Made by a program: the position numbers and the translations under genes
Shown here: piece by piece, positions 58,906 through 64,000 of the stretch
Position numbering within the stretch: position 1 is the stretch's first letter
How the letters are laid out: each line of letters starts with the position of its first letter
Source of the DNA: Arenibacter aquaticus
GTDB taxonomy: Bacteria > Bacteroidota > Bacteroidia > Flavobacteriales > Flavobacteriaceae
Length of the DNA stretch: 64,000 nt
Assembly (NCBI RefSeq): GCF_003957295.1
Contig: NZ_RQPJ01000003.1
Coordinates: 124,001-188,000 of the forward strand
Direction: 5' to 3'
The notes under the pieces: generated by a model
What the model was told of the DNA's origin: nothing
The model's input: the letters and a program-made list of their open reading frames with translations, nothing else
Database searches by the model: none

Positions 58906-59292
58906 CTAAGATGCCAAGCCACTACTAGCTGGCTTTGAAGACAATTTGGCTAGGGAAAAAGCTGCAATCGCCATCACCACATCGCGCACGGCAACATCCA
59001 AATAATGACCCCCAAGAATAAGGGACACTGCTATTAATAGCAACCAGGCAGAAACAACCATACCTCCCAGCCATGGTCTTATCAACACTAGAATTCCGGC
59101 CCCAATTTCAATGATCCCTACCATAGCCATAAAAGTTCCGGCATCAAAAGGTATCAAATTTATCATCCAAGTTGCAGGGTAGGTTGTCCAATCTACCAAT
59201 ATGTTAGTAAACTTATCCAAACCTGCTACAATTGGCACCAAGCCAAAAGTATATTTCAAAATGGTACTTACAAACTGTGTCTGTGCATTCAT
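58906..59292 (-). CDS. DoxX-family membrane protein
   Basis: A 128-residue protein with four membrane helices in DoxX arrangement: FVSTILKYTFGLVPIVAGLDKFTNI, FMAMVGIIEIGAGILVLI, GMVVSAWLLLIAVSLILGG and a last amphipathic helix. DoxX proteins associate with redox or stress functions. A promoter-like element AATGTAACC-N15-CATCCAAT lies 30-61 bp upstream, matching the elements before the ECF sigma gene and its neighbours. That makes it a likely member of the sigma regulon. Confidence 0.88.
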   Translation of the reverse strand: MNAQTQFVSTILKYTFGLVPIVAGLDKFTNILVDWTTYPATWMINLIPFDAGTFMAMVGIIEIGAGILVLIRPWLGGMVVSAWLLLIAVSLILGGHYLDVAVRDVVMAIAAFSLAKLSSKPASSGLAS

Positions 59293-59321: not shown

Positions 59322-59353
59322 ATTGGATGTCTTAAGGCTATTGGGGTTACATT
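59322..59353 (-). promoter_or_regulatory. ECF-type promoter element of DoxX
   Basis: On the minus strand: AATGTAACC, 15 bp, then CATCCAAT. The -10 octamer and the spacing equal those at the sigma gene promoter. The rest of the 59293-59655 gap has no gene. Confidence 0.6.
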
Positions 59354-59655
59354 TTTTTGTGTATTCCTATTTTATTGCAGATAGGTAGGTGAGACTAAAG
59401 AAGGAATAATAGGTAGGCAGTTAAAAATATTGATTAAAATGATATAATGCATGGTGTGCTGCTTACGAGAAAACAGGGTAAGAAAGGGTCAAACTGTAGT
59501 TGTTGTATTCCCTATTGACTTCTATTATGTGATACCCCTAAGTAATGACAAAGCTAGCAAATAGCTTCTGGCAATCCTTTTTTGCAGCTCATTGTAACAG
59601 TTGCCTTTTTAGGCAGGGGGCCAAGGTTTTGGTTACATACCGCCAAGCGTCACCT

Positions 59656-60339
59656 TTAAGGAAGGTTATGTATTTTGGTCATTAACTGTTCCACTAAACG
59701 ATCACATTTTTGATTGCCAAACTCGAAGGCATTTTTTGCATCAGTTAGTTCCATTATAGACACTTTCATCATATTCCGAGCCCTATGCAGCCTTACCTTT
59801 ACATTGCTATTGCTTAAGCCTAAACAATCTGCTATTTCTGCTATTTCCAAATCTTGAACTTCCTTCAGCATATAGACAATTTTATACTTTTCAGGCAATT
59901 GGTCTATGGCCATTTCTACAATTTTTAGAGACTCTGAGTGCATCGTTTTTCTTTCTGGATTCATGATGGATATATCCGCAATTTGTATGACGCCCTTTTC
60001 ATTGGAAATATCCACCGTTTTATGTCTTTTGGATTTTCTTTTACGTTGTAGAGCCTCATTAATTCCAATGCGTATCAACCAAGTAGAAAACAAGGATTCG
60101 TTTTTGAATTGATACAGTTTTTGGAACGCTTTTATATAAGTTTCCTGCATCACATCATCAATATCAGCAGGCCTGTCTATATAACTCCTGATAGTCCTAT
60201 ACAGCAGTTCATTATAACGTCTTAATAGGATTTCAAATAATTCAGTATCTCCTTGCAGTACCTTTTTAACTACTGCAGCATCTGAAATGCTTCCTTTAGA
60301 AGATATGTTTACTTTTCTAATGGGCTTACAATTGTTCAT
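59656..60339 (-). CDS. ECF-type RNA polymerase sigma factor
   Basis: A 227-residue sigma-70 factor of the extracytoplasmic-function group. Region 2 (about 35-105) contains YRTIRSYIDRPADIDDVMQETYIKAFQKL and STWLIRIGINEALQRKRK. Region 4 (about 150-205) contains QLPEKYKIVYMLKEVQDLEIAEIADCL and NVKVRLHRAR. The N-terminal extension is Ser/Lys-rich. No anti-sigma gene is adjacent. A promoter-like element whose -35 is back-to-back with that of the divergent flavoprotein gene suggests it controls its own transcription. Confidence 0.93.
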   Translation of the reverse strand: MNNCKPIRKVNISSKGSISDAAVVKKVLQGDTELFEILLRRYNELLYRTIRSYIDRPADIDDVMQETYIKAFQKLYQFKNESLFSTWLIRIGINEALQRKRKSKRHKTVDISNEKGVIQIADISIMNPERKTMHSESLKIVEMAIDQLPEKYKIVYMLKEVQDLEIAEIADCLGLSNSNVKVRLHRARNMMKVSIMELTDAKNAFEFGNQKCDRLVEQLMTKIHNLP

Positions 60340-60354
60340 AATAAGTGTTTAAGT

Positions 60355-60420
60355 ATTGGATGCCCATGCTTTAAAAAGGTTACAAAGTTTTGTAACCCCA
60401 TACAATTATTTTCATCAAAA
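60355..60420. promoter_or_regulatory. Divergent back-to-back ECF-type promoters
   Basis: The inverted repeat GGTTACAAA-GT-TTTGTAACC (60378-60397) carries a -35 element on each strand. On the plus strand TTTGTAACC (60389-60397) is followed by 15 bp and CATCAAAA (60413-60420), toward the flavoprotein gene. On the minus strand TTTGTAACC (60386-60378) is followed by 15 bp and CATCCAAT (60362-60355), toward the sigma gene. Confidence 0.65.
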
Positions 60421-60530
60421 CTCATGGCATATGCTTATAAAAGATAATATGAGATTTTACAAAAAGCACATTATCAACTCATTACAAGTTACGAAACAAC
60501 TACTTATTATTTAATTAAATCATATCTATT

Positions 60531-61196
60531 TTGAAATACGAAGTGAAAATTATAGAAACAACGAGGATAACACACAATGTGGTGCGGTTAAAAATTGCAA
60601 AACCCTCGGGGTTTACCTACACCCTTGGCCAAGCTATAGAATTAACGCTTAAGACTCCCAACTTTAAAAAGCAATTTGCCCCCTTTACGCTAGTTAGCAA
60701 TCCAAAGGACAGGCACTTGAGCCTTATCATAAAAATATATCCTGAACACCATGGACTAACAGAAGGAATATCCAAGGCCAATACCACAGATTCCTTAATC
60801 ATTACGGAGGCATGGGATTCTTACCAATATATGGGTGAAGGTGTTTTTATTGCCGCCGGGTCTGGCATAACCCCATTTATCCCAATGTTTAGGGAATTGA
60901 ACAAAAAGAATGGCCTTAAAAACCACCGGTTGATCTATGCCAACCGCCGTAGCACTGATATTATCCTTAAGGACGAGCTTACCCAATTATTCAAAAGCGA
61001 GTTTTTTAATATCCTGAGTAAACAACAAACTTCAACCTACGATTACGGTAGGATAGACTTTGCCTATTTGAAAAGTAGAATAAAGGAGCCAAATCAACAA
61101 TTCTATCTCTGTGGTCCCGAAAGCTTCATGAATAGCGTAAAAAAAGACCTAATAAAATACGGAGTAAAACAAACTAATATTCAAACGGGTAATTAA
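60531..61196 (+). CDS. Ferredoxin/flavodoxin reductase-like flavoprotein
   Basis: The frame starts at a TTG (60531); no ATG is available near it. The 221-residue protein has the FAD-binding FNR fold, including APFTLVSNPKD near residue 45. Its NAD(P)-binding part has VFIAAGSGITPFIPMFREL, LIYANRRSTDIILKDEL and the terminal FYLCGPESFMNSVKKDL. It lacks a 2Fe-2S domain, so it probably pairs with a separate ferredoxin or flavodoxin. It follows the plus-strand ECF-type promoter. A homologous gene is cut by the window's right edge. Confidence 0.88.
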   Translation: MKYEVKIIETTRITHNVVRLKIAKPSGFTYTLGQAIELTLKTPNFKKQFAPFTLVSNPKDRHLSLIIKIYPEHHGLTEGISKANTTDSLIITEAWDSYQYMGEGVFIAAGSGITPFIPMFRELNKKNGLKNHRLIYANRRSTDIILKDELTQLFKSEFFNILSKQQTSTYDYGRIDFAYLKSRIKEPNQQFYLCGPESFMNSVKKDLIKYGVKQTNIQTGN

Positions 61197-61198
61197 TT

Positions 61199-61834
61199 AT
61201 GAAAGTGAACGGAACAACAGCTGGGTATACAACCAATAGCGGAAAAAAGCCAATGACATTAGAACTTGACAAGTCCACTAAAATAGAGAAGATTGCCCTC
61301 TATTTTAAAAAAATAATGGAGACCCTGGATCTTGATCTTGACGATCCCAGTTTAATGGACACCCCTGAACGGGTGGCCAAAATGTATGTTAATGAGATAT
61401 TCAAAGGCTTGGATAATGCCAATTTTCCTAAAATATCCTTTTTCGAAAATAACTATGCTTATAAGGAAATCATCGTAATCCGTAACATTACCCTATATTC
61501 TTATTGCGAACATCATTTTGTTCCATTCTTCGGTAAGGTCAATGTTGGGTATCTACCCAACAATAAAGTGCTAGGGCTATCCAAAGTCAATAGAATTGTC
61601 CAATTTTTAGCCAGTAAGCCTCAAGTACAGGAGAAATTAACCGTAGAAATTGGGAATACCCTGATGAAACTTCTGGAAACCCATGATATGGCGGTATCCA
61701 TAGAAGCCCATCATTTATGTGTAGCCTCCAGAGGCGTTGAGGACAGTAATAGTGCTACCAAAACAAAGTTTTTCTCAGGGAGGTTCAAGAAAAACAAATA
61801 CCGAAGTCAATTCTTAGCGTCCATCTTAGCTTGA
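61199..61834 (+). CDS. folE: GTP cyclohydrolase I
   Basis: The 211-residue protein matches FolE. The zinc site is Cys103 in YSYCEHHFVPFFG, with its His pair, and Cys174 in EAHHLCVASRGV. The core has GLSKVNRIVQFLASKPQVQEKLT, and the tail has SNSATKTKFFSG. It converts GTP to 7,8-dihydroneopterin triphosphate, the first step to folate and pterin cofactors. It starts 2 bp after the flavoprotein stop, so the two are one transcription unit under the ECF-type promoter. This placement with redox genes suggests a stress-linked copy. Confidence 0.92.
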   Translation: MKVNGTTAGYTTNSGKKPMTLELDKSTKIEKIALYFKKIMETLDLDLDDPSLMDTPERVAKMYVNEIFKGLDNANFPKISFFENNYAYKEIIVIRNITLYSYCEHHFVPFFGKVNVGYLPNNKVLGLSKVNRIVQFLASKPQVQEKLTVEIGNTLMKLLETHDMAVSIEAHHLCVASRGVEDSNSATKTKFFSGRFKKNKYRSQFLASILA

Positions 61835-61840
61835 TTATTT

Positions 61841-61872
61841 TTTGTAACCCTTTTGGCATTATTTCATCAAAA
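61841..61872 (+). promoter_or_regulatory. ECF-type promoter element of the cytochrome gene
   Basis: TTTGTAACC (61841-61849), 15 bp and CATCAAAA (61865-61872) match the flavoprotein promoter in both boxes and spacing. It lies 25 bp before the start codon. Confidence 0.65.
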
Positions 61873-61897: not shown

Positions 61898-63256
61898 ATG
61901 AAAGCATCCAATTTAATCAAGTTAGTGGGCATACTCCTGATCTTTATCAGTTTCGGCAGCTGCACCAAAACAAAAACCATTACCGAAACCTTAACGGAAA
62001 TAGTCAACGACACCATTATTGAAACTAGGACAGACACTCTAACCCTTCATCTTGATCCTGCTTTAGTTGCCGAGGGGAAACAAATTTTTAGATATGACAC
62101 CTTTGGTGATGAGGCTTTTTGGAGTGATATTTTACACCTTGACAAAGCCATACTGGGAGAAACCAATGGGGGCTATGGAGAAGGTGTTAGTCCGGCTACT
62201 GCTTTGGCCGTTGGCCTAAAGGTAGATTCCGAGGCTTTACCTTCCCAGCTCGTAGACGCTATTCAGGCAGGAGAGGTAGACTTAAATGATCCTGCAACCA
62301 CTATTGCTCTGCTACAATTTGATGCTGTGGTTGGAGTAAAGGGCACCTTTGATGAAACTGGAAATATGATAGCAGTGGGCATAAATTGTGCGTTATGCCA
62401 TTCTACTGTAGACAATTCGTTCAGTGAAGGTATAGGAAAGCGCTTGGACGGGTATCCCAATAGGGACTTAAACGTTGGGGGGATTGTAAACCTAACGGAT
62501 AACAAGAAATTTCTAGCCGACTTGCTTCACGTAGATGAGCCTACCGTAGAAGCCGTCCTCACTGGCTGGGGACCAGGTAAGTTCAACGCCGGACTATTTG
62601 TTGATGGCATAGCCCTAGATCCTAACGGCAAAATTGCTGCCAACCTAATTCCTGCCGCTTATGGGTTACAAGGTGTTAATTTAGCCACTTATACAGGTTG
62701 GGGCGATATGGTGTATTGGAATGCCTTTGTTGCCAATCTGGAAATGCACGGGCAAGGCAACTTTACAGACTCCCGTCTTAATAATGCAACCCAGTTCCCC
62801 ATTGCCGCCGAAAACAACTTTGGAGCGATTAGCAATGATCCGGATTTAATCAGCCCCAAACTGCCCGCATTACAAGCGTACCAGCTATCATTAAACGCCC
62901 CTATCCCAGAGGAAGGAAGTTTTGACGCTAATGCGGCTGCACGTGGCAAGGCATTGTTTAATGGGAAAGCCGACTGTGCTAGTTGCCACATAGCCCCTAT
63001 GTTTACCGATGCTGGCTACAACCTTCATAGTGCCGAAGAAATAGGTATAGATGACTTTGAAGCAAAAAGATCCCCAACAGGAATGTACAGAACCACGCCT
63101 TTACGGGGATTATTCGCCAGAATGAAAGGTGGATTTTACCACGACGGTAGGTTCGCAACCCTTCAGGAGGTAATAGACCACTATGATGCCCATTTTGCAT
63201 TAGAACTATCCACAGAAGAAAAAACAGACTTGGTAGCCTATCTAAAATCTATTTAG
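61898..63256 (+). CDS. Di-haem cytochrome c lipoprotein
   Basis: A 452-residue protein with signal and lipobox (LLIFISFGSC, Cys about 22). Two haem c sites are visible: CALCH (about 164-168) and CASCH (about 360-364). Each is embedded in a cytochrome c-peroxidase-like pattern; the second domain has PTGMYRTTPLRGL and GGFYHDGRFATLQEVIDHYD, typical of the MauG/CcpA superfamily. It probably reduces peroxide or transfers electrons outside the cytoplasm. Its own promoter-like element places it in the sigma regulon. Confidence 0.9.
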   Translation: MKASNLIKLVGILLIFISFGSCTKTKTITETLTEIVNDTIIETRTDTLTLHLDPALVAEGKQIFRYDTFGDEAFWSDILHLDKAILGETNGGYGEGVSPATALAVGLKVDSEALPSQLVDAIQAGEVDLNDPATTIALLQFDAVVGVKGTFDETGNMIAVGINCALCHSTVDNSFSEGIGKRLDGYPNRDLNVGGIVNLTDNKKFLADLLHVDEPTVEAVLTGWGPGKFNAGLFVDGIALDPNGKIAANLIPAAYGLQGVNLATYTGWGDMVYWNAFVANLEMHGQGNFTDSRLNNATQFPIAAENNFGAISNDPDLISPKLPALQAYQLSLNAPIPEEGSFDANAAARGKALFNGKADCASCHIAPMFTDAGYNLHSAEEIGIDDFEAKRSPTGMYRTTPLRGLFARMKGGFYHDGRFATLQEVIDHYDAHFALELSTEEKTDLVAYLKSI

Positions 63257-63641: not shown

Positions 63642-64000
63642 TTAAAACTTATGTCCCGTTTGGATCCATTGTTTTTTTACGCCCATTTCTAACAATAGCT
63701 GGGATATATCCTTTTCGAACCTAATAGGCCCGCAGATGTAAAAAAACTGGCTATAGTTATGCACAAACTGTTTTAGGACCTGTAGATTGATTTTTCCAAA
63801 GATGGAATCAGAATATTTGGTTCTGCTTAAAACATGGATACAATTCTTTCCCAAAACCTTCCTTAACTTGGAATAAAAAAGAATATCCTCCCTGCTCCTA
63901 TTAGCGTATAACAAGAGGTGTCGTTGGTGTATATCATCTCCCTTTACTTCCAACTCCTTTAATATGGGTATAAAAGGGGTAATTCCAGTTCCTGCTGCAA
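63642..64000 (-). CDS. Second FNR-like flavoprotein, 5' partial
   Basis: The minus-strand frame runs open to the window edge, so the N-terminus is missing. The visible part starts AAGTGITPFIPILKELE and continues LLLYANRSREDILFYSKLR and FFYICGPIRFEKDISQLLLEM. These blocks parallel the C-terminal half of the flavoprotein encoded at 60531. The last residues IQTGHKF also parallel IQTGN of that paralogue. It is convergent with the cytochrome gene. Its promoter lies outside the window. Confidence 0.85.
   Translation of the reverse strand, partial: AAGTGITPFIPILKELEVKGDDIHQRHLLLYANRSREDILFYSKLRKVLGKNCIHVLSRTKYSDSIFGKINLQVLKQFVHNYSQFFYICGPIRFEKDISQLLLEMGVKKQWIQTGHKF

Follow-up and report, generated by a model that had tools for sequence, protein, structure and literature searches.

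The window analyzed here, a 64,000-nucleotide stretch of the genome of Arenibacter aquaticus (contig NZ_RQPJ01000003.1, positions 124,001 to 188,000), contains a gene for an extracytoplasmic function (ECF) sigma factor flanked by genes for flavoproteins, the pterin-synthesis enzyme FolE, a di-haem cytochrome and a small DoxX/MauE-like membrane protein. Each presumed transcription unit of this locus is preceded by the same bipartite element, TGTAACC-N15-CATC(A/C)AA. Sequence comparisons make it very likely that the four copies in the window, together with a fifth upstream of the next gene, are promoters of a single ECF sigma factor of the PRK11922/ECF29 kind. The first-pass annotation of this DNA had linked pterin synthesis, a flavoprotein, a cytochrome and DoxX under one autoregulated sigma factor, and this link is supported by the conservation of the element among relatives and by its match to the promoter of the ECF29 sigma factor RpoE8 of Sinorhizobium meliloti.

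On the minus strand the element, as TGTAACC-N15-CATCCAA, lies upstream of the DoxX/MauE-like gene (element 1, 59323-59351) and of the sigma gene itself (element 2, 60356-60384), the latter suggesting autoregulation; on the plus strand, as TGTAACC-N15-CATCAAA, it lies upstream of the flavoprotein-folE pair (element 3, 60391-60419) and of the di-haem cytochrome gene (element 4, 61843-61871). The spacing is exactly 15 bp in all four, as the first-pass annotation had stated, and allowing up to two mismatches across the window recovers only these four, all exact, with shuffled sequences averaging 1.28 matches at that tolerance. On base composition, chance would yield 0.0013 exact copies per 64 kb, or 0.11 for the genome as a whole; a first-order Markov simulation of 300 x 64 kb produced one match. 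A search of the whole 5,233,924-base genome (24 contigs) for the bipartite motif with 15-bp spacing, which the annotation had proposed, returns four exact copies, all at the sigma locus. With up to two mismatches the genome yields 107 matches versus 129 for the reversed pattern, so that weaker copies are indistinguishable from noise by motif alone. The fifth element bears one mismatch (TGTAACG) and is located 358 bp past the window end (window-equivalent 64358-64386), upstream of the gene for a second flavoprotein, FNR2. Allowing spacings of 14-16 bp adds one more exact match (N16, contig C19), with one match for the control; this site and a one-mismatch site 3.7 kb away on the same contig are regarded as background, no regulon family being recognizable by eye among the open reading frames (ORFs) there.

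The element is conserved around relatives of the sigma factor. A sigma-alignment scan over one genome per species found 274 relatives, the best 80 loci of which were kept: they amount to 1.53 Mb and come mostly from Flavobacteriaceae and other Bacteroidota, with one Ignavibacteriae bin; being from related species, these rows are not independent. A generalized element, TGTAAC(C/T)-N15-CATC(A/C/T)AA, occurs 135 times in these loci, whereas the reversed pattern does not occur at all. When the spacing is varied from 8 to 23 bp, the 135 copies at 15 bp stand against six at 16, two at 13, two at 21 and none at other lengths; this fixed spacing is the strongest sign of conservation. The genes starting within 260 nt downstream of the element encode the sigma factor (46), DoxX-like proteins (22), flavoproteins (17), DUF4142 proteins (17, one member confirmed by Pfam), MauG-like proteins (5), FolE (4) and unrelated proteins (2); these counts omit matches with the next gene at least 260 nt away or with none, and have the window references subtracted. 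The ORF caller was crude, and 22 of the 135 matches fall "inside" called ORFs, some of which are spurious frames. The next gene typically starts 16-32 nt after the -10 box. Across the loci a gene order recurs, in which MauG-cupredoxin-DUF4142 and FolE-flavoprotein run in the same direction and the sigma and DoxX-like genes in the opposite one, each with its element; the family homologous to the DoxX/MauE-like protein is present in 54 of the 80 loci, DUF4142 in 23 and cupredoxin in 24. The annotation had allowed for the motif turning up at random positions in related genomes: instead, it is borne by 63 of the 80 loci, repeatedly upstream of the same gene families.

Whole-genome scans of the 49 genomes from which 50 of the 80 loci come, summed by hand, gave 148 matches versus seven for the control, with at least one match in 45 genomes. 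Forty regions around whole-genome matches hold 42 matches, seven of which (L200, L209 twice, L210-L213) are already among the 135. Thirteen of the 35 further matches lie upstream of regulon families, namely eight DUF4142 genes, three flavoprotein genes and two DoxX-like genes, and all eight of these DUF4142 genes sit on contigs other than that of the sigma gene. Among 199 genomes of the same bacterial family, tallied by hand, the element is found in 14 of the 19 with a sigma relative (E <= 1e-40; 38 copies) versus 40 of the 180 without one (49 copies); the reversed control gives 38 copies in the 199 genomes. Two observations concern outlying copies. In two genomes (L188, L190) the element lies 61-66 nt upstream of genes for small c-type cytochromes of 120 aa, and a family related to these occurs near the sigma gene in 8 of the 80 loci. 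In three Muricauda-type genomes (L197, L198 and L199, i.e. G214, G211 and G210) a conserved copy about 12.5 kb from the sigma gene lies 150 nt upstream of a gene for an uncharacterized protein.

The sigma factor (227 aa, 59656-60339, minus strand) scores 218.7 bits on the NCBIfam model PRK11922 (NF008888; curated cut-off 204) and is the sole protein of its genome above that cut-off; the counterpart of RpoE8 in S. meliloti ml66 scores 322.6 bits. A tree was built from 54 rows: 39 from the window and the genomes, 11 from plasmids and, as outside rows, three sigma paralogs from the own genome and the ECF16 protein RpoE7; 8 of the 80 sigma ranges contained a stop codon and were left out of both alignment and tree. 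The Bacteroidota rows and the ECF29/RpoE8-like plasmid rows form one group (support 88/82) apart from the four outside rows, with RpoE7 on a very long branch. Among the 30 rows listed, plasmid relatives share 34-37% identity with the window sigma factor.

The published promoter of RpoE8, the closest one to have been mapped by experiment, is GGGAAC-N16-CATCCAA, with -35 GGGAAC and -10 GCATCCAA at the mapped start (PMC6180224). Both published promoters were located in pSymB of S. meliloti 1021, one upstream of the sigma gene and the other upstream of a gene encoding a protein that includes the ml66 DUF4142 sequence; in strain 1021, rpoE8 is followed by the DUF4142 gene. The RpoE8 system (SMb20592, SMb20593, amcY) resembles that of the window in the PRK11922 membership of its sigma factor (judged from the ml66 counterpart), in the -10 CATCCAA, in the 15 bp between a 7-base -35 and CATC, and in having the element upstream of its own sigma gene, with a further copy upstream of DUF4142 as in the loci of the relatives. 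Further shared features are a cupredoxin next to DUF4142, again as in loci of the relatives, an FxF...C tail, and the lack of a known anti-sigma factor, which for RpoE8 is stated in that study (PMC6180224). It differs in its -35, which is GGGAAC as against TGTAAC here, while the Arenibacter genome lacks DUF4142, adds flavoproteins, a MauG-like cytochrome and a DoxX/MauE-like protein, and has divergent back-to-back promoters at the locus.

The plasmid relatives, from rhizobia, methylotrophs and Variovorax, lie near genes for DUF4142, cupredoxin/amicyanin, ferritin-like, cytochrome and truncated haemoglobin proteins, and those of Mesorhizobium additionally near a FolE gene; three plasmid records carry no annotation, and in the planctomycete record none of these neighbors was seen. 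When 14 plasmid loci are scanned with a relaxed G(T/G/A)AAC-CATC pattern, the 15-bp geometry is again the commonest, with 22 matches; GGAAC-N16-CATC is found upstream of sigma, DUF4142, folE and truncated haemoglobin genes in rhizobia and methylotrophs. The recognition helix is of the NVKVR type in the Bacteroidota rows read, and T-x-x-T-R in 8 of the 11 plasmid rows; the planctomycete row has NVKVR, and two of the 11 were not read. The altered -35 box thus accompanies an altered recognition helix in the sequences, a correspondence which, with essentially two clades, could be a coincidence. Within the family of Arenibacter itself, the SM6 motif of Flavobacterium psychrophilum has been reported as an ECF-type promoter, but its targets belong to type IX secretion and include an ECF sigma/anti-sigma pair (PMC9723704).

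The back-to-back inverted repeat that the first-pass annotation had described between the divergent sigma and flavoprotein genes is present at 60378-60397: the -35 boxes of elements 2 and 3 point in opposite directions across a 6-bp gap and form GGTTACAAA-GT-TTTGTAACC. Such a pair, scanned with the last -35 letter and two -10 letters left free, occurs in 38 of the 80 loci, with gaps of 5 bp (20), 6 bp (14), 4 bp (2) and 3 bp (2). The divergent partner varies among the relatives, being mostly a flavoprotein, FolE or DoxX-like gene; where it is DUF4142, the two elements lie farther apart. To judge from the geometry, two holoenzymes probably cannot bind together across a 6-bp gap; without simultaneous occupancy of the -35 boxes, transcription of the sigma gene and of flavoprotein-folE would compete.

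As to how the sigma factor might be controlled, a search for NrsF (DUF1109), the anti-sigma of ECF16, was negative in the Arenibacter genome, in 16 genomes of relatives and in 13 plasmid records, while the same search was positive beside RpoE7 in pSymB and in a Caulobacter control. Among the families found in at least five of the 80 loci no other anti-sigma candidate was apparent by eye, the model search being confined to NrsF. The sigma factor has a conserved C-terminal tail, FEFGxxKCD: its cysteine is present in all 79 readable sigma frames of the 80 loci, 73 of which have the exact pattern FxFxxxxCD, and F207, G208, C212 and D213 are invariant in the 39 aligned rows. A cysteine occurs within the last 32 residues of 10 of the 11 plasmid rows, with none visible there in the Methylocystis row L218. 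ECF29 has been listed among sigma factors with regulatory extensions, under the mechanism "others" (PMC8999054, Table 2). In the predicted structure residues 210-224 are helical and follow a flexible stretch; block values of the predicted local distance difference test (pLDDT) in this part are 46 to 66. The solved structural relatives of the sigma factor are ordinary ECF sigma factors.

A number of observations weigh against assigning these elements to one autoregulated sigma factor that senses its own signal. The strict element is missing from 17 of the 80 loci, and a relaxed scan gives a near copy upstream of the sigma gene in only five of these; similarly, five of the 19 genomes of the same bacterial family with a sigma relative bear no element. 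The remaining 22 of the 35 further whole-genome matches precede no regulon family, among them those upstream of two related small c-type cytochromes, a Rieske protein and a decarboxylase (the last named from by-eye likeness to a neighbor family). The plasmid scan also gives 13 matches one base wider, and one to six at other lengths, and the 88/82 support for the joining of Bacteroidota with ECF29 falls under the starred level. In S. meliloti, according to the published study, RpoE8 overexpression revealed no target, mapping of the transcription start of SMb20593 did not succeed, and strains lacking rpoE8-SMb20593 showed amcY raised 2.6- and 3.2-fold (PMC6180224). The rise of amcY does not fit its simple activation by RpoE8; the targetless overexpression would fit a need for activation, and equally an idle sigma factor. 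A PhaR motif has been listed upstream of rpoE8 (PMC12542648), and transcriptional control of the sigma factor by another regulator is therefore possible. Finally, the structure model has a predicted template modeling score (pTM) of 0.40 with a poorly defined tail: together with the low pLDDT of the tail, this makes it uninformative on contacts, and it lends no structural support to the idea of sensing.

Among rival readings, the TGTAAC repeat could be the operator of a dimeric transcription factor, with CATC belonging to another promoter and the sigma gene being one target: the two divergent copies do form a near-perfect palindrome, such a pair is kept in 38 of the 80 loci, and a response regulator family occurs near the sigma gene in 14 of them. 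However, many copies stand alone, lack symmetry and keep CATC(A/C/T)AA at a distance of exactly 15 bp, and such single copies precede DUF4142, MauG-like and second flavoprotein genes as well as, in Arenibacter-type loci, DoxX-like genes. Since in addition the -10-to-start distances cluster as they do and the same bipartite layout is the mapped promoter of RpoE8 in S. meliloti (PMC6180224), we consider an operator of this kind very unlikely.

The -35 box alone would suit the ECF16 group, whose consensus is tGTAACc-N16-CGAA (PMC3420878), so that the locus might be a metal or oxidative stress system under a membrane anti-sigma NrsF, like SigF/NrsF of Caulobacter. The SigF-NrsF system of Caulobacter crescentus resembles that of the window in its GTAACC-like -35 and in a small regulon that contains a DoxX protein, but differs in its -10 CGAA, its NrsF anti-sigma and its DUF692/DUF2063/DUF2282 targets (PMC3511200). 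The -10 in the window is CATC(A/C/T)AA, NrsF is encoded neither in the own genome nor in those of the 16 relatives, and RpoE7, the ECF16 protein of S. meliloti that is encoded beside NrsF and through which the distance of SigF from the window sigma factor was judged, falls outside the group on its very long branch. Contradicted on the -10, on NrsF and in the tree, the ECF16 assignment was rejected as extremely improbable. A light-response regulon, in which FolE and a flavin reductase supply the cofactors of photolyases, is brought to mind by genes for a cryptochrome/photolyase-type protein and a DPRP photolyase-related protein 10-12 kb past the window end. Yet the element is missing from the 200 bp upstream of both genes, and the genes downstream of the element in the relatives never cluster with these two proteins; with the nearby photolyase genes lacking the element, we rejected this reading too as very unlikely.

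Under the preferred reading, that of an ECF29-like sigma factor with its own small regulon, the sigma holoenzyme would read -35 TGTAAC(C/T) and -10 CATC(A/C/T)AA at the fixed 15-bp distance, and would drive its own gene in a positive loop while switching on the genes for two flavoprotein reductases, FolE, the MauG-like di-haem cytochrome and the DoxX/MauE-like membrane protein. In place of a separate anti-sigma, the sigma factor might be restrained by its own C-terminal tail with Cys212, acted upon probably through a redox change, a metal or a partner protein; that the tail alone does the sensing strikes us as somewhat doubtful, and redox stress as the signal as an evenly balanced matter. The predicted targets carry electrons or make cofactors, and several belong to families located at or near the envelope. 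The output may be a response, by repair or electron transfer, to redox stress at the envelope, possibly of a nitrosative kind; the nitrosative part is a guess from neighbors such as the truncated haemoglobins of the plasmid loci. Only tentatively, and with doubt about the picture as a whole, we propose that Bacteroidota and Alphaproteobacteria share an ancient regulon without an anti-sigma, whose sigma factor senses through the invariant C-terminal cysteine and controls FolE, flavin reductase, cupredoxin/haem carriers and DUF4142 under nitrosative or redox stress, its own promoter being set back-to-back (3-6 bp) with that of the main operon and competing with it.

As for the genes of the locus, the DoxX/MauE-like protein (128 aa, 58906-59292, minus strand) matches Pfam MauE with an E-value of 0.0046, below the cut-off, and Pfam DoxX with an E-value of 0.051 and 14.7 bits as against a gathering cut-off of 23.6. 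While all four genes named by the first-pass annotation do bear the element, its label DoxX is thus unsafe, and "DoxX/MauE-like" is the safer name since neither match reaches its cut-off. FNR1 (221 aa, 60531-61196, plus strand; listed with a TTG start) is an FAD/NAD(P)H oxidoreductase of the ferredoxin-reductase fold with NAD_binding_1 and FAD_binding_8 matches. It is followed by FolE, GTP cyclohydrolase I (211 aa, 61199-61834, plus strand; PF01227 197 bits, NF006824 263.4 bits with a cut-off of 202). The di-haem cytochrome (452 aa, 61898-63256, plus strand) has two CxxCH motifs at residues 164 and 360 and matches the MauG model with an E-value of 9.8e-13, below the model cut-off; in the layout of the locus its gene occupies the place corresponding to that of DUF4142, which is absent from this genome. 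The second ferredoxin-reductase-fold flavoprotein, FNR2, is encoded on the minus strand at 63642-64000, cut by the window end, with its own TGTAACG element upstream. The regulon repeatedly combines MauE-like, MauG-like and amicyanin-like (cupredoxin) proteins, an association that recalls methylamine dehydrogenase systems.

The leader of FNR1 spans 60420-60530, and in the divergent pairs of the relatives the called flavoprotein or FolE start lies 44-191 nt after the -10 box, most other regulon targets starting at 16-32 nt; no small ORF shared by these long 5' leaders of the flavoprotein/folE operon was seen in 15 leaders compared by eye. Beyond the window end, two PAS-domain sensor proteins adjoin the regulon (window-equivalent 67612-72482; L032:8612-13482), the first with many PAS and GAF domains, a HisKA stretch below the cut-off and no ATPase match. 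Further on, genes for a SRAP peptidase, the cryptochrome/photolyase-type protein (with an FAD-binding photolyase match only) and the DPRP photolyase-related protein stand in a row (window-equivalent 73212-76899; L032:14212-17899), none of them preceded by a copy of the element.

An ECF29-type sigma factor with its promoter is already known. For the altered -35, the FolE/flavoprotein/MauG-like regulon of Bacteroidota and its recurrence in rhizobia, we found no description in the papers covered, although the 2021 ECF classification, which lay outside the search, may well list a Bacteroidota ECF29 or a neighboring group. Literature searches on ECF sigma factors with DUF4142 and nitric oxide (NO)/DoxX, or on ECF29, gave as relevant only PMC6180224, the table entry of PMC8999054 and the PhaR motif of PMC12542648. 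The authors of the RpoE8 study knew of no detailed work on any ECF29 sigma factor (PMC6180224).

For this nearly unstudied group of sigma factors, the locus and its relatives provide a first concrete target list, recurring over many genera, together with a defined promoter and a single residue whose possible role in sensing can be tested. The recurrence of FolE and DUF4142 in both phyla points to a common physiology, which could be tested in tractable hosts.

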